Shown: in pieces, positions 4,041 through 18,255 of the stretch | Layout: each line of letters opens with the position of its first letter | Numbering within the stretch: position 1 is the stretch's first letter | Assembly (NCBI GenBank): GCA_016213135.1 | Contig: JACRBQ010000035.1 | Coordinates: forward strand, 1-64,000 | Source: Chloroflexota bacterium | Lineage (GTDB): Bacteria; Chloroflexota; Anaerolineae; Anaerolineales; VGOW01 | Length of the DNA stretch: 64,000 bases | Direction: 5' to 3' | Position numbers and translations under genes: made by a program | The notes under the pieces: generated by a model | Told to the model about the DNA's origin: nothing | The model's database searches: none | What the model saw: the letters and a program-made list of their open reading frames with translations, nothing else

Positions 4041-5465
4041 CTACGGTATCCATTCCGGCAGGTAGCCGCCGGGGGCCAGTTCCGTTTCGCCGGCACCGCT
4101 GATGTCGATAATCCATACGGTGGGCAGTTCGCTGAGGGCGGCGACGTTGAAGCGCATATACACCAGCCGCGCCGAGTCGGGGCTCCACACAAAGGCGCTG
4201 TGGTTGTCGAAGGGGTCGCTGGTGAGGGCGCGGGCGTCTTGCCCGTCCGCGCGCATGAGCCACAACTGGCGGCCCGGTGTCCACTGGTTCTGCACAAGCT
4301 GCTTGCGGGCAAAGGCCAGCCACTGGCCGTCCGGCGAATACACGGGTGAGGCGTCTTCGACGAGATTGCTGCCGGAGAGGTCGTCGGCCTTGTTGGTGGA
4401 TACGGTGACGCGCAGCAGGTTGCTGTAAAAGCGGTCACTGTTCTCCGGCTCGGCGGTGGGGGTCTGGGGGATGGCGCCCGTGGCGGTGGGCGCGGGAGTG
4501 GGTTCGGGCGGGAACACAATCTCCGGGTAAACGATGAAGTTGCCGTCGGGCGACCACGTGCCCATTTCGCCGGAGGTGTTGGGGATGTAGGTTGCGGTGC
4601 GAGAGGCAAAGTCAAACACGGCAATGGCCTGCAGGGTGGAATCGAGGTAGGCCAGGCGGCCATCGGCGGCGAAGCGCGGGCTGCGGGTGGCATGCGCGGG
4701 GTCTTGCGCCGGGATGGTGAGTTGGCCGCTGGCGGGGTCGAGCACTTGCACTTTGGGGTCGCCGGTCTGGCCGTCGGGCTGCACGGGCGAACGCTCGAAG
4801 GCGAGTTGCGCGCCGTCGGCAGAGAATTGCGGTGCGCTGCACAGGTCAGTGTGGCAGGCCAGCACGGTGGTCGCCGGGCCGCCGTCGCGGCTCGTGCGCC
4901 GCAAGTCCGCGCCGCCATCGGGGCGCAGGGCGGCATACACTATTTGCGTGCCGTCGGGGCTGACGACGAAGTCGTCCACGCCGGCGGCTTCGCTGGTGAG
5001 CTGGGCTGCCGCGCCGCCCTCGGCGGGCACAGCCCACACGTTGGCGATGTCGTCGGTTTTGAGGAGGAAGGCCACGCGAGCCGCGCCGACGGTGAAGCTC
5101 CAACTGCGCCCGAACAGCATGGGAAGGCCGCGACTGGTTTTTCCCCCCAATGCCAGCGACACGGTAACCGTTCCGGGGGGCCACGTGCCATCGGGAGTGA
5201 AGCGCAGTTCGTTCCCCGACCAGCTCACCGCCCCGGCGGATGGCGGCTGGATGCTGAGGCGGCTTTCGACCGAGGCCTGGTCCATCGGGTGATTGAAGCT
5301 GAGGGTGACGGGCGCGCGCGAGGAGGCGCTGTCGCCCTGCGGCGACACGGCCAGCACGCGCGGCAGGCCGAAGAATGCGGCCATGGCGAGGCCGATGAGG
5401 ATTCCGGCAAGGGCCAGCAGAACGAGTTGCGGCGCGGCGGAGGGGCGACGATGGCGGTACATCAT
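4041..5465 (-). CDS. Membrane-anchored beta-propeller (TolB/PD40) protein with Ig-like domain
   Basis: A 474-residue envelope protein. One N-terminal membrane helix (LVLLALAGILIGLAMAAFFG, about residues 13-32) is followed by a bacterial Ig-like domain (Big_5 style, SRAPVTLSFNHPMD) up to about residue 125 and then repeated WD40-like PD40 blades: VSPDGTQIVYA, FSADGAQLAFE, WSPDGNFIVYP, YSPDGQWLAFA, WSPDSARLVYM. A Pro/Thr linker (EPTPAPTATGAIPQTPTAEP) interrupts the blades. The likely location is outside the membrane, as a binding or scaffold module; no catalytic residues are evident. A -10 box 7 nt ahead of the start suggests a leaderless transcript. Confidence 0.85.
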   Translation of the reverse strand: MMYRHRRPSAAPQLVLLALAGILIGLAMAAFFGLPRVLAVSPQGDSASSRAPVTLSFNHPMDQASVESRLSIQPPSAGAVSWSGNELRFTPDGTWPPGTVTVSLALGGKTSRGLPMLFGRSWSFTVGAARVAFLLKTDDIANVWAVPAEGGAAAQLTSEAAGVDDFVVSPDGTQIVYAALRPDGGADLRRTSRDGGPATTVLACHTDLCSAPQFSADGAQLAFERSPVQPDGQTGDPKVQVLDPASGQLTIPAQDPAHATRSPRFAADGRLAYLDSTLQAIAVFDFASRTATYIPNTSGEMGTWSPDGNFIVYPEIVFPPEPTPAPTATGAIPQTPTAEPENSDRFYSNLLRVTVSTNKADDLSGSNLVEDASPVYSPDGQWLAFARKQLVQNQWTPGRQLWLMRADGQDARALTSDPFDNHSAFVWSPDSARLVYMRFNVAALSELPTVWIIDISGAGETELAPGGYLPEWIP

Positions 5466-5480: not shown

Positions 5481-6137
5481 TCACGTCGCTACTTCGATGA
5501 ACAGGTTGGCCGCCATGTCTGCGCCCAGCACTTGCTCGCCCACAGGGGTTTTAAGCCGCACCGGGCCATCGAAGGGGGCGCGGTTGAGCAGCGTGATGGG
5601 CGTGCCGGGTGTGAGGCGAATTTCGGCGAGGTACCGGAGCTTGTCCGGGGTGTGTCGGCGAATGCGGCGCAGTATGCCCCGCGTGCCCACCGGAAAGGTG
5701 AGCAGGCTGGCTTCGCTCAACGCGGGCATGCGCCCGTCTTTGGTGGGGATGGGGTCGCCGTGCGGGCAGCGGGCGGGGTAGCCGGCGAGTTCGTCCATGC
5801 GATCTTCAAACTGATCGTTGATGGCTGCCTCGAGGTCGTGCGCGTGCGTGTGCACCTCGTCCCAGCCGAACTTCATGACGGTGACGAGGAAGGCCTCGAG
5901 CAAACGATGGCGGCGGATGGAGCGCAGGGCCTCGCGCTCGCCCTTGGGCGTGAGGCGCACGCCCTTGTAGGGCTGACGGCGCAGGTAGCCCTCGTGCGCC
6001 AGCAGCCGCATCATCTTCACCGCTGCCGGGGGCGACACCTCCAGCCGCGCGGCCACCGCGGTGGTGGTCACCGGTACCTCGGTGGACGATTGCAGGCGAT
6101 AGATTTCCGCAAGATAATCACGCCGGGCATGGCTCAT
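5481..6137 (-). CDS. DtxR/MntR-family metal-dependent repressor
   Basis: A regulator of about 218 residues. The canonical family start MSHARRDYLAEIYRL coincides with the ATG at 6137; the ORF track extends 57 residues further into sequence with no family resemblance. The winged helix holds VTTTAVAARLEVSPPAAVKMMRLLAHEGYL, the metal and dimer domain has RRHRLLEAFLVTVMKFGWDEVHTHAHDLE and HGDPIPTKDG, and a C-terminal FeoA/SH3-like domain follows (RYLAEIRLTPGTPITLLNRAPFDGPV). It lies divergent to the FTR1 iron permease, so iron-dependent repression of that gene is the likely role; manganese is an alternative. Confidence 0.88.
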   Translation of the reverse strand: MSHARRDYLAEIYRLQSSTEVPVTTTAVAARLEVSPPAAVKMMRLLAHEGYLRRQPYKGVRLTPKGEREALRSIRRHRLLEAFLVTVMKFGWDEVHTHAHDLEAAINDQFEDRMDELAGYPARCPHGDPIPTKDGRMPALSEASLLTFPVGTRGILRRIRRHTPDKLRYLAEIRLTPGTPITLLNRAPFDGPVRLKTPVGEQVLGADMAANLFIEVAT

Positions 6138-6357
6138 GGCCTCGGTGGCTGAGTCGGCGCCCGTCAGTGAGTTGAGGGCGGCGGCCACAGGAGTCGGCTT
6201 CCCGTCCAATCCACACAGCCCTGGGGTTTTACTCTGGTTAATTTCCAAGTTGTCCTCGAGGAAGCCCAAGTTTAACGGGCAAGTCTTGATAATTCTGATA
6301 TTTGTCACTAATATTACCCTAACTATACAACCCTTTCAAGAACTGGAGAAAAGAGGC

Positions 6358-7200
6358 ATGTGGGTATCTTTGCTGTTGACGTTGCGTGAGGGGCTTGAGG
6401 CGGCACTGATTGTGGGCATTGTGTTCGGCTACTTGCGCAAGATTGACGGGTTGCAATACGCGCGCACGGCCTGGGCGGGTGTGTTGAGCGCGGTGCTGTT
6501 GAGCGCGGCGCTGGCCGTGGGTATCATGGCCGTGGGGGCGGAGCTTACGGGCCGCGCCGAGCAGTTGTTCGAGGGCGCGACGATGCTGTTGGCGGTGACC
6601 GTGCTGACGTGGATGATCTTTTGGATGCGGTCACAGGCGCAGCACTTGAAGGCCCGGCTGGAGGGCAAGGTACAAAAGGCAGTGGCTGCCGGAGTGGGCG
6701 GCGCGGCGTGGGGGCTTTTTGCGATGACGTTCATCGCCGTGTTTCGCGAGGGGGTGGAGACGGCGCTGTTGCTCGGGGCGGCGGCCTTCCAAACCAACGG
6801 GATGGACACGTTGATCGGCGCGGTGACCGGCCTGGCCATGGCGGCAGCCATCGGCTATGCGGTGTACGCCTCCACGGCGCGGCTCAACGCGCGGCTGTTT
6901 TTCGACGTGACCAGTTTGCTGCTGCTGGTGTTTGCCGCCGGGCTGTTCATGCACGGTGTGCATGAGTTTCAAGAGGCCGGGCTGCTGCCGGAGATCGTCG
7001 CCGACGTGTGGGACACGAGCGCGCTGATCAGCAAAGAGTCGGTGCCGGGGCAGTTCCTGCGAACGCTCGTCGGCTACACCCCCAAGCCCTCGCTGGTGGA
7101 AGTGCTGGCCTACGTGGGTTACTGGCTCGCCACACTGGGCGCGGTGCGCTGGTGGAACAGCCGGCTGGCGGCCCGCCACGAATTTATTCCTGCGGAGTGA
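6358..7200 (+). CDS. FTR1-family high-affinity iron permease
   Basis: A 280-residue, about seven-helix membrane protein. Two REGxE iron-binding motifs are visible, REGLEAAL at residues 10-17 in the first helix and REGVETALL in the fourth. The ATG at 6358 is chosen over the longer ORF because GGAGAAAAGAGG precedes it and translation starts at once with a membrane helix carrying the first motif. In yeast FTR1 works with a ferroxidase; here no partner oxidase or EfeO-like protein is adjacent. The divergent DtxR gene and the 220-bp AT-rich spacer suggest iron control. Confidence 0.9.
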   Translation: MWVSLLLTLREGLEAALIVGIVFGYLRKIDGLQYARTAWAGVLSAVLLSAALAVGIMAVGAELTGRAEQLFEGATMLLAVTVLTWMIFWMRSQAQHLKARLEGKVQKAVAAGVGGAAWGLFAMTFIAVFREGVETALLLGAAAFQTNGMDTLIGAVTGLAMAAAIGYAVYASTARLNARLFFDVTSLLLLVFAAGLFMHGVHEFQEAGLLPEIVADVWDTSALISKESVPGQFLRTLVGYTPKPSLVEVLAYVGYWLATLGAVRWWNSRLAARHEFIPAE

Positions 7201-12933: not shown

Positions 12934-13135
12934 CTTGCTCAACGGATCGCCTTTCAGCGGATTGAAAACGAAAAAGCGGATGGGAGCGCAGTCGCCATCC
13001 CCTTTCGCGGAGCGGCTTAATCATCCGTTGGAAGTTTATTCTCGACTTTGCGTTCTTGTGCCTTCTTCCATATAATCCTGCACACGGGAGCGGCTTGCCG
13101 CCGCTGTCTGATGAGTGTGGTTAGCAGGAGGACGT
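12934..13135. other. Spacer with degenerate dispersed repeat and DGR promoter
   Basis: No gene is seen. The part from about 12939 to 13030 (CAACGGATCGCC ... ATCCGTTG) is a diverged member of the CGGAT-ended repeat family found at 17901 and 31628. It is followed by the promoter of the DGR target gene. Confidence 0.5.
13048..13076 (+). promoter_or_regulatory. Promoter of the DGR target gene
   Basis: TTGCGT at 13048-13053 and TATAAT at 13071-13076 are 17 bp apart, about 60 nt before the start codon. A ribosome binding site AGGAGG precedes the ATG at 13136. Confidence 0.6.
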
Positions 13136-16018
13136 ATGAGCAACGATCCACAACAGCCGGGAACGGAGATTTTGAAACGGATCGTCGAGAAGCTCAAGGT
13201 ACAAGAATTCCTATTTGCGCTCGGACTTGTCGTTGCCTTGGCAGTCTTCGGCGGATTTATCCTGCCCGATTACATCCCCTTGATCTATTTGGCGACAGGC
13301 GTGGCGTTGATCTTGTATACCGTCACGGTGGTGACGACGGCCTACCGCAAAGTGCGCGACGCGAAAGAGGGCGCGACGCAAGCCCGGCGCGAGCCGTCAA
13401 CCGTCATCGTCACCGTGTTGCCGCCTGCGCCGTCTGTTGAGCCGGTACGCCCGGCGCTGTCCGAATTCGAGCAGTTGACGATGTATCTGGATCGGGTCAG
13501 AAATACCAACAACATCTTGCGGCTGGTCGGGATCAGCGCCGAGGCCAGTGACCCGCAGAAATCGAGCGCGGAAGCGCGCACCCCGACCTCTTTATCGGAC
13601 GTATTCATCTCACTGCGAATTGATCGTTATCGCGGCGAACCCGAAGAGCAGGCGCAGGGCAAACCGGATCGTGAACACCAGCAAGAGATGGCGCGGTTAT
13701 TGGAGCGGGAACGCAAGCAATTGACGGCCATCGAAGCGTTGAGCGATCCCAAAGTCTTGCGCTGTGTGATGTTGGGGCAGCCGGGATCGGGCAAATCGTC
13801 GGTGCTGCGTTACGCGGCGTATCGCCTGGCCGAGTCGTTCCTTTCCCCCGAACGACTGAAAGAGACGATGCCCGAATGGCAGGCCGGAGAAATGCTGTCC
13901 GTGCTGGCGCCGTTGGCGCTTTTGGCCGAGTCGCTGCCGGCGCGCGCCCAGGGCGGGAAACTGGACGATCACGTGGTTGCGTTTGTCCAGGCGCAAGTGG
14001 AATGGTGCGCCGAAATGAACGGCTTTGCCCGGCGCGTGTGGCGCGAGGCGCGCGAGCGCGGCGTGCTGTTTTTGTTCGACGGCCTGGACGAAGTGGCGCC
14101 GGAAAAACGCGCCGTCGTCAAAGAGGCGATAGACGAGTTTCTTTCGGCGCGGGGCAAATGTCGCGCCGTCGTCACCTGCCGCACGTACAGTTACGGCGAC
14201 GACAAGTGGCGGCTGGAAGGCTGGCCGGCTTACAACATCGAGCCGCTTTCGCGCGGCGAACAAGAATCGTTCATACAGAAGTGGTACCAAACGCTGATCC
14301 AAAACGACGCCCCCTCGCGCCCGCTGTACGAGAAGAAAGCACAGTCGCTCGAGGGCGCGATTTTCTCCGGCGACGCCCGGCAACTGCATCAAATCTCGGG
14401 CACCCCCCTGCTGTTGACGCTTATCGCCATCGTGCACACGCATCAAGAAGAACTGCCCCGCTCGCGCATTTTGATTTACCGGGAGTGCGTCAACCTTCTG
14501 CTTCTGCGCTGGCAAAAGCGGCGGCAGGTCGGCGACGCGCTGAAGTCCATCGCCGAACGGATGAAAGATGCCGCGCCCACGGCGAGCGGGCTGGCCGACA
14601 AAGTGCTGGAGGGGCTGGCCGAGGTGGCGTATCAAGCCCGCGACCGGGACGCGATGAAGCATGGCGACTCCATGTTGATAGACCTGTATCTCCTGCGGCA
14701 AGTGATGATGCGCTATCTGCCCGAAGCCGCCCTGTCCGTCTTTGAAGATTATTGCTTGAATGCCAATGGCTTGCTCCTGGCCATTGGCTCGCGCCGCCTG
14801 CGGGATCGCCCGGCCCACGAAGAGCCGGTGATGTGCTTCGCCTTCCCGCATCTCTCTTTTGAAGAATACCTAGCCTCGCAATACATCGCCACGCTGGACA
14901 ACCCGGAAGAGGCGCTGGCACAGCGCAACGCGGCCAGCGACCGCTGGTTTTACGCCGGGCTTTTCCTGGGCGAGCAGTACGCGCTCGTCACGCCCAAACG
15001 CGCCAGGAATATGCTGGAGATGTTTCACCAACTACTCAAGGACGGCGCAGCTTGGCGCAACGTTTGGCTGGCGGGCGTGTTGTGGCCGCTGTTCTGCGCG
15101 GAATTTCCCGAGAGGCGCGGCGACCCTGCCGAGTTGGAGGGGCGCGTCCGTGAGCGCCTTACAACTTTGTGCGCGACGGGGCAACTGTTGCCGCACGAAC
15201 GCGCCGACGCCGGGCGCGTGCTGAGCGAGATGGGCGACCCCCGTGACCTCGAAGAACTCGTCGCCATTCCCAAAGGCCCGTTCATTATGGGCAGCAAGGA
15301 AGAAGGCCCCTGGCTCGACGAGCGCCCTCAACACGAAGTCGTCATTCCCGGCGATTACAGGATTGGAAAATACCCGGTGACGGTGAAATTGTGGAAGCGG
15401 TTTGTGGATGAGGCGAAATACGATCCGCGCGTTCCGGATTCGCTCAAAGGCTACGACAACCATCCCGCGCACGACGTTTCCTGGCACGACGCTTGCAACT
15501 TCTGCGAATGGCTGACGGACGTATGGCGAAAGGAAGGGAAGATCGGCGAGAATGAAGAGGCGCGCTTGCCCACGGAAGCGGAGTGGGAGCGCGCGGCGCG
15601 CGACACAGACGGGCGCGAATGGCCTTGGGGCAACACATTTGAGGAGAATCGCGCGAACACATCTGAAAGCGGAATCAGGCGCACCACCGCTGTTGGCATA
15701 TTTCCTGCCAAGGAAGTACCGACAAAATGTTTGGATATGATTGGCAATGTGTGGGAGTGGACTATCAGTTTGGGGGCCGAGTATCAGGATAAGAGTTACG
15801 CGAAGCGCGTGCGAGAGTTCAAATATCCGTATGATCCAGGAGATGAGCGAGAAGATATGCGGGCCGCTGATAACTTTTCCCGCGTGGTGCGCGGCGGCTC
15901 GGGCGGCAGTCCCGGGTTCGCGCGCTGTGCCTGCCGCGGCGGCTACCTCCCGTTCTATCGGGGCGGCAACGTCGGTTTTCGGGTGGTGGTCTCCCCTATC
16001 TCGCTTTTGAATCCCTGA
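13136..16018 (+). CDS. DGR target: membrane-anchored NACHT NTPase fused to FGE/C-type-lectin-like variable domain
   Basis: A 960-residue NLR-like protein. Two N-terminal membrane helices (about 24-68) are followed by a linker, a NACHT NTPase with Walker A GQPGSGKSS (about 213-221) and Walker B VLFLFDGLDE (about 311-320), then TCRTYSYGD as sensor, helical repeats to about residue 700, and an FGE-sulfatase-type C-type-lectin fold from about 711 (IPKGPFIMGS, LPTEAEWERAARD, MIGNVWEW, RVVRGGS). The last 45 residues hold the variable repeat. The two catalytic cysteines of true formylglycine-generating enzymes are not in place, so the domain is a binding module. NACHT-FGE proteins diversified by DGRs have been proposed as antigen or phage sensors; signalling by NTP-driven oligomerisation is inferred. 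Start chosen at the ATG after AGGAGG. Confidence 0.93.
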   Translation: MSNDPQQPGTEILKRIVEKLKVQEFLFALGLVVALAVFGGFILPDYIPLIYLATGVALILYTVTVVTTAYRKVRDAKEGATQARREPSTVIVTVLPPAPSVEPVRPALSEFEQLTMYLDRVRNTNNILRLVGISAEASDPQKSSAEARTPTSLSDVFISLRIDRYRGEPEEQAQGKPDREHQQEMARLLERERKQLTAIEALSDPKVLRCVMLGQPGSGKSSVLRYAAYRLAESFLSPERLKETMPEWQAGEMLSVLAPLALLAESLPARAQGGKLDDHVVAFVQAQVEWCAEMNGFARRVWREARERGVLFLFDGLDEVAPEKRAVVKEAIDEFLSARGKCRAVVTCRTYSYGDDKWRLEGWPAYNIEPLSRGEQESFIQKWYQTLIQNDAPSRPLYEKKAQSLEGAIFSGDARQLHQISGTPLLLTLIAIVHTHQEELPRSRILIYRECVNLLLLRWQKRRQVGDALKSIAERMKDAAPTASGLADKVLEGLAEVAYQARDRDAMKHGDSMLIDLYLLRQVMMRYLPEAALSVFEDYCLNANGLLLAIGSRRLRDRPAHEEPVMCFAFPHLSFEEYLASQYIATLDNPEEALAQRNAASDRWFYAGLFLGEQYALVTPKRARNMLEMFHQLLKDGAAWRNVWLAGVLWPLFCAEFPERRGDPAELEGRVRERLTTLCATGQLLPHERADAGRVLSEMGDPRDLEELVAIPKGPFIMGSKEEGPWLDERPQHEVVIPGDYRIGKYPVTVKLWKRFVDEAKYDPRVPDSLKGYDNHPAHDVSWHDACNFCEWLTDVWRKEGKIGENEEARLPTEAEWERAARDTDGREWPWGNTFEENRANTSESGIRRTTAVGIFPAKEVPTKCLDMIGNVWEWTISLGAEYQDKSYAKRVREFKYPYDPGDEREDMRAADNFSRVVRGGSGGSPGFARCACRGGYLPFYRGGNVGFRVVVSPISLLNP
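15880..16004 (+). repeat. DGR variable repeat (VR)
   Basis: These 125 nt at the 3' end of the target gene align to the TR at 17589-17716. By eye, 24 of the 30 TR adenines are replaced in the VR, by G, T or C, and no non-adenine position is changed. One TTC codon of the TR is missing in the VR. The invariant stretch GGTTTTCGGGTGGTGGTCTC near the end is a candidate initiation-of-mutagenic-homing region, bounded downstream by CTCGC. Confidence 0.95.
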
Positions 16019-16053
16019 TCCCTGAAAACTCTGATCCATGTGGGGGTGGGGGT

Positions 16054-16082
16054 CTGGGGGCGGGGGTTTCCCCCGCCCCCAG
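16054..16082. promoter_or_regulatory. Perfect 13-bp hairpin/cruciform downstream of VR
   Basis: CTGGGGGCGGGGG, loop TTT, then its exact complement. It lies 50 nt after the VR, between the target stop and the RT start. DGR target sites in the Bordetella phage system need a hairpin or cruciform just downstream of the VR (established knowledge); this is the natural candidate here. There is no T-tract, so it is a poor terminator. Confidence 0.6.
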
Positions 16083-16109
16083 CCGGGGCAAGAAGCGCGG
16101 CGGCGCACC

Positions 16110-17198
16110 ATGAAACCTTACACGAATCTCTACCCCAAAATATGCGCCTGGGAAAACTTGGAGCTGGCCTATTACAAGGCGCGGCGGGGCAAGCGCGGCC
16201 TGGCGCCGGCGGCAAGTTTCGAGCGCAAGTTGGAAGACAATTTGGTTGCTTTGCAAGACGCACTGCTCTCGCAAACCTACGCGCCGGGAAAATATCACAG
16301 TTTTTACATCCACGATCCCAAGAAGCGTTTGATCTCCGCCGCGCCGTTCCGGGATCGAGTGGTTCATCACGCACTGTGCAACATCATCGAGCCGATCTTC
16401 GAGCGCAGTTTCATTGACGACTCTTACGCTAACCGCGTGGGCCAAGGCACGCACCGCGCGCTGGATCGCTGTCAGCAATTCTCGCGCCGCTATCGCTACG
16501 CTTTGCAACTCGATGTCGTGCAGTATTTTCCGGGCATTGACCACGCAATTCTGCGCGAGACGTTGGCGCGAAGGATTGGCGATGAAGCGGCTCTCAGACT
16601 GTGTGAGGTAATTATCGAGAGCGGGCGCGGCGTGCTGGCGGAAGAATACAACATGGTCTATTTTGACGGCGACGACCCTTCGACGGGCTCAGGGCAGGGT
16701 CTGCTGGCCGTCAACCGCCCGCGCGGCTTGCCTATCGGCAACCTGACCTCGCAGTTTTGGGCAAACGTCTATCTCAACTCGTTTGATCACTTTGTCAAGC
16801 GCGAACTCAAATGCAAAGCGTATCTGCGTTACGTGGACGATTTCATCCTGTTTGCCGACGACAAGCAAACATTATGGGCATGGCGCAAGGAGACTGTGGA
16901 TTACCTTGCCCGCTTGCGTTTGACGCTTCACATTGAGCGCGTTCACCCGCGCCCCGTAACTGAAGGCGTGATGTTTCTCGGCTTCAACGTCTTTCCGACT
17001 CATCGCCTGCTCAAGGCGAAGAAGGCGATCTCGTTCCGAAGAAAGCTCAAGGCAATGCGCCGCCAATTGGCAGAAGGCGAGATCGGGTTAGGGATGCAGC
17101 ACGCCTCGGTCAGAGGCTGGGTCAACCACGTACGCTATGGGGATACGTGGGGCCTGCGCCGCGCAATTCTGGGCGCGAATCCGATTACGTGGAATTGA
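16110..17198 (+). CDS. DGR reverse transcriptase
   Basis: A 362-residue reverse transcriptase. The palm motifs are clear: LDVVQYFPGIDH (first aspartate), LPIGNLTSQFWANVYL, which is the IGxxxSQ form that separates DGR enzymes from other bacterial RTs, and LRYVDDFILFADD with the YVDD catalytic pair. The C-terminal thumb region (FLGFNVFPTHRLLK, RGWVNHVRYGDTW) is typical of the group. With Avd it copies the TR RNA into adenine-mutagenised cDNA that replaces the VR. An extra DPSTGSGQG segment before the fourth motif is encoded by a dispersed palindromic repeat. ATG at 16110 is preferred over the longer ORF, which would translate the G/C hairpin. Confidence 0.95.
   Translation: MKPYTNLYPKICAWENLELAYYKARRGKRGLAPAASFERKLEDNLVALQDALLSQTYAPGKYHSFYIHDPKKRLISAAPFRDRVVHHALCNIIEPIFERSFIDDSYANRVGQGTHRALDRCQQFSRRYRYALQLDVVQYFPGIDHAILRETLARRIGDEAALRLCEVIIESGRGVLAEEYNMVYFDGDDPSTGSGQGLLAVNRPRGLPIGNLTSQFWANVYLNSFDHFVKRELKCKAYLRYVDDFILFADDKQTLWAWRKETVDYLARLRLTLHIERVHPRPVTEGVMFLGFNVFPTHRLLKAKKAISFRRKLKAMRRQLAEGEIGLGMQHASVRGWVNHVRYGDTWGLRRAILGANPITWN
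16676..16699. repeat. Palindromic repeat inserted in frame in the RT gene
   Basis: CCCTTCGACGGGCTCAGGGC belongs to a short palindromic repeat type common in intergenic DNA of many bacteria. Here it adds eight codons (PSTGSGQG) between motifs of the RT without breaking the frame. Confidence 0.6.
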
Positions 17199-17201
17199 CC
17201 C

Positions 17202-17546
17202 TTGCCAAACGAATCTCCCCTTTTCTCCCGCACGTTTGATTTTCTCTCTTGGCTCTTGCAGCGCTCACAAAGTTTTCCGCGCCCGCACCGTTTTGGAGCA
17301 ACGCAGCGCCTGCAGAATGCGGCCATGGATTTCCAGGAGTTGATCGTCGAGGCTGAATCGCTGCGCGGCGCGGAAAGGCTGGAGCGATTGCGGCGCGCGG
17401 ACGCCGAACTGGGGAAAGTGCGATTGTATTTACGCCTGTGCCGCCAGTGGGATTGGTTGACGGCCGGGCAATATGAGCATGCCTCGCGCATGATCGCGGA
17501 AATGGGGCGATTGCTGGGAGGATGGCTCAAAGCAACCGGCACGTAA
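17202..17546 (+). CDS. avd: DGR accessory variability determinant (Avd)
   Basis: A 114-residue protein of the four-helix bundle Avd family (related to 23S rRNA intervening-sequence proteins). It starts at a TTG three nt after the RT stop; the reading PNESPLFSRTFDFLSWLL with RSQSFPRPHRFGATQRLQNA and the end GQYEHASRMIAEMGRLLGGWLK covers the family's whole length, so a later ATG (MDFQEL) would cut off the first helix. The Avd pentamer is basic and binds the RT and the TR RNA during mutagenic retrohoming. TTG initiation implies low expression or coupling to RT translation. Confidence 0.93.
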   Translation: MPNESPLFSRTFDFLSWLLQRSQSFPRPHRFGATQRLQNAAMDFQELIVEAESLRGAERLERLRRADAELGKVRLYLRLCRQWDWLTAGQYEHASRMIAEMGRLLGGWLKATGT

Positions 17547-17588
17547 GGCCGCAATTTGCCTTGTTGTGTAGGGCTGCGCCGATGGAGG

Positions 17589-17716
17589 CCGCGTGGTGCG
17601 CGGCGGCTCGTTCAACAACAATCACAGGAACGCGCGCTGTGCCTGCCGCAACGACAACCACCCGAACAATCGAAACGACAACATCGGTTTTCGGGTGGTG
17701 GTCTCCCATAACTCGC
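17589..17716 (+). repeat. DGR template repeat (TR)
   Basis: This 128-nt template starts 43 nt after avd. It contains 30 adenines, clustered in AAC, AAT, GAC and CAC triplets that are in register with the target frame. AAY triplets can mutate to many amino acids but never to a stop codon. The TR would encode [20 protein letters not shown] and continue [14 protein letters not shown] if it lay in the target frame. Confidence 0.96.
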
Positions 17717-18017: not shown

Positions 18018-18105
18018 GGAGGGATGGCTGAGTGGTTTAAAGCGACGGTCTTGAAAACCGTTGTGGGGCCTGTCCTCACCGGGGGTTCGAATCCCTCTCC
18101 CTCCG
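18018..18105 (+). tRNA. tRNA-Ser (anticodon TGA)
   Basis: The acceptor GGAGGGA pairs with TCCCTCC, discriminator G. The anticodon arm ACGGT CTTGAAA ACCGT gives TGA, which reads UCN codons. The long variable arm of a serine tRNA and the T loop GGGGGTTCGAATCCCTC are present. CCA is not encoded. Confidence 0.97.
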
Positions 18106-18160: not shown

Positions 18161-18255
18161 GGGGAGGTGCCGGAGTACGGCTGATCGGGAGCGCCTGCTA
18201 AGTGCTTGTACGGGCTTTTAAACCTGTACCGAGGGTTCAAATCCCTCCCTCCCCG
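18161..18255 (+). tRNA. tRNA-Ser (anticodon GCT)
   Basis: The acceptor GGGGAGG pairs with CCTCCCC, discriminator G. The anticodon arm AGCGC CTGCTAA GTGCT gives GCT, for AGC/AGU codons. A long variable arm follows, then GAGGG TTCAAAT CCCTC. It follows the first serine tRNA by 55 nt, probably on the same transcript. Confidence 0.97.

Follow-up and report, generated by a model that had tools for sequence, protein, structure and literature searches.

A missing codon in the variable repeat of a Chloroflexota NACHT protein gene and its possible origin in a reverse transcriptase template skip

Introduction

Diversity-generating retroelements (DGRs) are usually described as length-preserving adenine changers. 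How, then, does a variable repeat (VR) come to be one codon shorter than its template repeat (TR)? The question is raised by a locus in a 64,000-nucleotide stretch of DNA from a Chloroflexota bacterium, referred to here as the window, whose source genome (3.8 Mb, 147 contigs, 92.8% completeness) is probably a metagenomic assembly. A first-pass annotation had reported that the VR lacks a TTC codon found in the TR, and had left two alternatives: either the TR gained the codon after the last homing event or the VR lost it.

Results

The window carries a complete DGR on the forward strand, with a NACHT-FGE target gene, a reverse transcriptase (RT), the accessory protein Avd and a TR/VR pair. The target gene (13139-16018) encodes N-terminal hydrophobic segments, a NACHT NTPase domain (Pfam E 5e-7, above the gathering score) and a C-terminal, C-type-lectin-like FGE-sulfatase domain (PF03781, Pfam E 7e-45, residues 705-950 of 959) that ends in the VR; its open reading frame spans 13115-16018, and the start ATG at 13139 is preferred from comparison with the paralogue on contig C17 of the same genome. 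The VR (15880-16004, 125 nt by alignment to the TR) lies in the gene's final codons, at the C-terminus of a lectin-like protein. The RT (16110-17198; RVT_1, E 5e-16) is of DGR type, with an intact YVDD active site and an LPIGNLTSQ motif, the TSQ stretch of which is invariant among relatives that also have TR/VR pairs. It is followed by Avd (17202-17546; NF033474 DivGenRetAVD, E 4e-26, over the curated cut-off; bAvd PF22296) and by the TR (17589-17716, 128 nt by alignment to the VR), over which Rfam found no known RNA. Directly 3' of the DGR lie two tRNA genes (18018-18105 and 18161-18255). The closest DGR relatives of the genome come from Anaerolineae and Chloroflexota. Fusion of a NACHT NTPase to a DGR-diversified CLec domain is a feature of STAND/NACHT conflict systems and is present in the target, which we regard as a putative immune sensor with a putative anti-phage role; a PADLOC run on the target returned no match.

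The optimal alignment of the two repeats shows 24 substitutions, each of which replaces one of the 30 TR adenines (14 A>G, eight A>T and two A>C); none of the 95 aligned non-adenine positions differs. The chance that 24 random substitutions on 125 sites, 30 of them adenines, would all fall on adenines is about 1e-15. The earlier claim that every base difference lies at a TR adenine is thus borne out, and the alignment found no substitution at a non-adenine TR position within the repeat. The accompanying claim of adenine mutagenesis and past activity is likewise upheld by the intact RT and Avd, and by the three TR/VR pairs of the genome, independent of one another, in each of which only TR adenines differ. 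The TR of the C17 paralogue was considered as the source of the window VR and rejected, since it gives non-adenine mismatches and a shorter alignment; the source is the window's own TR.

A survey that located homologues of the RT in some 700 related genomes and in the contigs of the genome itself scanned 182 loci and found TR/VR pairs de novo, giving 129 non-redundant related pairs, among which related loci are treated as independent. In these pairs A>C makes up 80 of the 116 substitutions lying 3' of the GFR codons, compared with 368 of 2172 among all adenine changes, and at loci with two VRs (L117, L119, L122, L124, L131, L140, L152 and L182) the tail differences are common to both VRs despite their differing variable parts. 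Most Anaerolineae pairs have a TR-A/VR-C difference at 9-14 nt beyond the GFR codons, and sister VRs share it. The IMH-like 3' tail of the window VR (15993-16004) holds two differences of this kind, C15996 against A17708 and T15999 against A17711, which are probably fixed 3' markers rather than products of mutagenesis. Given the fixed-tail pattern in relatives, only 22 of 28 window adenines are credited to mutagenesis: the annotated figure of 24 of 30 adenines replaced is right as a count, and 22 of 28 is the better measure of mutagenesis. A fixed difference of this kind would also mean that counts of mutated adenines are slightly inflated in this group.

Fifty nucleotides past the VR, at 16054-16082, lies a GC-rich hairpin (CTGGGGGCGGGGG-TTT-CCCCCGCCCCCAG) with a perfect 13-bp stem and no T-run after it. 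Perfect stems of at least 8 bp occur downstream of 63 of 128 related VRs, upstream of 0 of 124 and in none of the shuffles. The hairpin is a candidate target-recognition hairpin, and together with the tail differences it would resemble the IMH-like segment and target hairpin of known DGRs.

The sole gap between the repeats measures three bases. The TTC codon stands at 17611-17613 of the TR, directly 5' of AACAACAAT (17614-17622), and is absent from the VR between 15901 and 15902, where the protein reads RGGS-GGS as against the TR-encoded RGGSFNNN. An exhaustive placement search found one placement with zero non-adenine mismatches, which confirms the reported codon difference as a single, uniquely placed gap. 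Loss of an AAC unit by slippage was also tried and rejected for the window, as it needs T-to-G changes and only deletion of TTC leaves no non-adenine mismatch.

Alignment with relatives, proposed in the first-pass annotation as a way to find the ancestral form, points to the form with TTC. All 83 readable related TRs and 87 of 90 VRs encode an aromatic residue (W, F or Y) after RGG[S/A], by TTC, TGG or a tyrosine codon; the three exceptions are the window VR, L098 (an adenine change) and L140 (a reading artefact). The C17 paralogue has TTC in both TR and VR, and the solved FGE-fold protein 7spq has the sequence RGGSF at the place at which no aromatic follows RGGS in the window protein. Neither of two same-genus genomes holds a full pair: G001 has only a shortened TR-like stretch, containing TTCAACAACAAT, and G003 only a VR, with RGGSW. 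A gain of TTC by the TR after the last homing, with the VR ancestral, would account for the length difference by one event; it is contradicted by the aromatic codon in these TRs and VRs and in both paralogue repeats, and we consider it extremely improbable. The same counts and the paralogue show that the other alternative holds and that the VR is the partner that lost the codon. Because homing copies the TR length, it follows, as the annotation had suggested for one of its cases, that the VR has not been rewritten since the loss. The lost phenylalanine belongs to the constant scaffold, so that the window allele is probably weakened.

A search of the genome with the TR and the RT yielded two further TR/VR pairs, on contigs C17 and C99. 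The C17 DGR (L013, C17:3500-14500; repeats 4933-5052 and 6741-6865), whose RT and Avd are 75% and 78% identical to the window proteins, has substitutions at 22 adenines only, and its VR lacks 5 bases (ACCGC) directly 5' of AACAACAAC, an AAC-AAC-AAC run. Its TR is in frame, and its 977-aa NACHT-FGE target ORF is frameshifted by the VR deletion. The C99 pair (L014, C99:6000-12581; 5884-6013 and 6196-6325, only about 180 nt apart) has 18 adenine changes and no indel, and an AAG to TAG change truncates the target; no RT was found there before the contig end. With a frameshift on C17, a stop on C99 and a codon lost in the window, a full-length standard domain is encoded by none of the three VRs. 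A 24-base exact TR match in dnaN (contig C104, L015, 1099-1122) was considered as off-target homing and rejected as native, since relatives encode NVRGGAFNND there.

Among the 129 related pairs, 21 (16%) show a length difference or compensating gaps. The annotation's premise that retrohoming normally preserves length therefore holds for most pairs and fails for these. In eight pairs (6%; L064, L065, L066, L072, L078, L141, L148 and L013, the gap of L141 lying in a G run where it may be a sequencing error) the VR is frameshifted and the TR in frame, which marks the VR as the changed partner. Most in-frame single-gap cases are gains or losses of one or two AAC units (L076, L077, L083, L112, L123, L149, L137 and L140). 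Of the 19 single-gap cases, 14 allow a placement in contact with an AAY-AAY run, and simulated random indels give an expectation of 9.0 (P = 0.013), the simulation allowing for the extra gap placements within repeats, where placement is ambiguous. Across the 129 pairs there are 55 non-adenine substitutions, and these are no more frequent in pairs with an indel (0.33 per pair) than in those without (0.44), so the indel pairs are not simply older. In a second, mixed and mainly phage set (80 IMG/VR loci and 20 further Chloroflexota loci, yielding 80 pairs) the rate is lower, with an indel in five of 80.

At one locus (L064, VR 5995-6131) a 19-base tandem duplication carries the same adenine change in both copies, which suggests that the duplication came after mutagenesis. 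At another (L172) the TR (5217-5337) has no readable RGGxW frame and has apparently lost bases, and the VR is normal; this TR is possibly a dead template.

The survey also bears on whether the short VR might be an assembly artefact, a mosaic of variants from a mixed population. VRs are polymorphic by nature, and an assembly in 147 contigs at 92.8% completeness leaves room for such a mosaic. The remaining alignment is, however, perfect at non-adenine sites, and the same classes of indel recur in many unrelated assemblies, which makes an artefact very unlikely.

Discussion

Since homing imposes the TR length, a shorter VR implies an error in the cDNA or a later event; in a reconstituted BPP-1 DGR reporter, homing restored 18 missing bases (PMC12875486). 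We propose, with a probability of roughly 0.6, that the DGR diversifies the lectin-like domain of the NACHT protein and that the codon was lost in the cDNA of the last homing, when the RT skipped part of its template. RT and Avd would make an adenine-mutagenised cDNA from the TR RNA, and this cDNA would take the place of the VR. As the template is read 3' to 5', the AACAACAAT run, in which five of six adenines are changed in the VR, would be copied first, and the RT would then skip the next three template bases, TTC. The frame would be kept and the scaffold aromatic that follows RGGS would be missing, leaving what is probably a weakened sensor until a further homing event overwrote it. Skipping of template bases once a stretch had been miscopied is the simplest account of the sequence, and both the TTC deletion of the window and the ACCGC deletion of C17 adjoin an AAC run, just past it in the direction of copying.

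In favour of such a skip, slippage on AAC repeats in multiples of three has been proposed for DGR RTs, as the discussion of PMC12875486 reports, citing Wu et al. 2018. Taken as summarised there, that proposal is like the window in tying a three-base change of VR length to an AAC run; it differs in that TTC adjoins the run and is not a repeat unit, and in that C17 lost five bases, which is not a multiple of three. TTC not being an AAC unit, the slippage proposal does not cover it, and this counts against a skip. Slippage itself having already been put forward, a skip beside the run would extend that idea on the basis of two deletions, both from a single genome. The enrichment, too, is modest at P = 0.013, and comes from related loci that are not fully independent.

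A different timing is offered by an ordinary replication or repair deletion, independent of the RT, that removed TTC from the VR DNA after homing. Coding sequence tolerates in-frame deletions of three bases best, and sequence alone gives no date for the loss: a single change in one VR is undatable, and a later ordinary deletion would leave the identical sequence. Against this, the absence of non-adenine changes at 95 positions leaves little elapsed time, and the gap abuts an AAC run as it does in the C17 paralogue. Nor are pairs with more non-adenine changes enriched in indels, and 21 indel pairs beside 55 substitutions is an indel share that we judge high for ordinary mutation. We therefore hold a post-homing deletion to be unlikely. 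The deletion itself appears to be young, because no non-adenine change has arisen since.

The position of the gap suggests yet another route, in which cDNA synthesis stopped prematurely once the AAC run had been copied and the product was then fused inaccurately with the VR already in place. The deletion coincides exactly with the end of the 22-nt block of 5' homology, and in BPP-1 integration at the 5' side depends on homology and can occur at cryptic sites (PMC3240598). A cDNA ending in GGCGGC should, however, anneal to the GGCGGC further upstream and so take out TCG too, and TCG is kept; the homology block itself is also intact. An error at the 5' joint is in our view decidedly improbable, and we return to the template skip as the preferred reading.

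The window locus shares with the DGR of Bordetella phage BPP-1 its adenine-specific TR/VR differences, RT, Avd and the location of the VR in the 3' end of its target; the probably fixed mismatches of its 3' tail and the candidate hairpin after the VR may correspond to the IMH/IMH* segment and the hairpin of BPP-1 (PMC3240598). The two differ in the target, a chromosomal NACHT-FGE protein here and a phage tail tip in BPP-1, in the distance of the hairpin past the VR (about 50 nt as against 4), and in the VR that is one codon shorter than its TR. Similar in architecture are the NACHT/STAND-CLec DGRs of multicellular bacteria (clade 5D, Dore et al. 2024, PMC10907252), which also combine NACHT with a C-terminal diversified FGE/CLec domain, occur at several loci per genome and have filamentous Chloroflexi among their hosts; these NACHT-CLec proteins have been proposed as antigen sensors (PMC10907252). 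The window genome departs from those systems in that, of the three VRs found, one is frameshifted, another has a stop and the last is a codon short.

More tentatively, and with rather less than even confidence, we speculate that the DGR RT of Anaerolineae, as a regular part of mutagenic homing, omits or duplicates template bases at AAC runs and directly next to them, and that VR length, and with it the length of a loop and at times the loss of frame, is itself a product of diversification in addition to the adenine changes. If this is true, such a change would be present in roughly every sixth VR, and many alleles of the sensor would be faulty for a time. Length changes arising from the RT would then count as a further, measurable product of the element, and as a price that cells pay for varied sensors.
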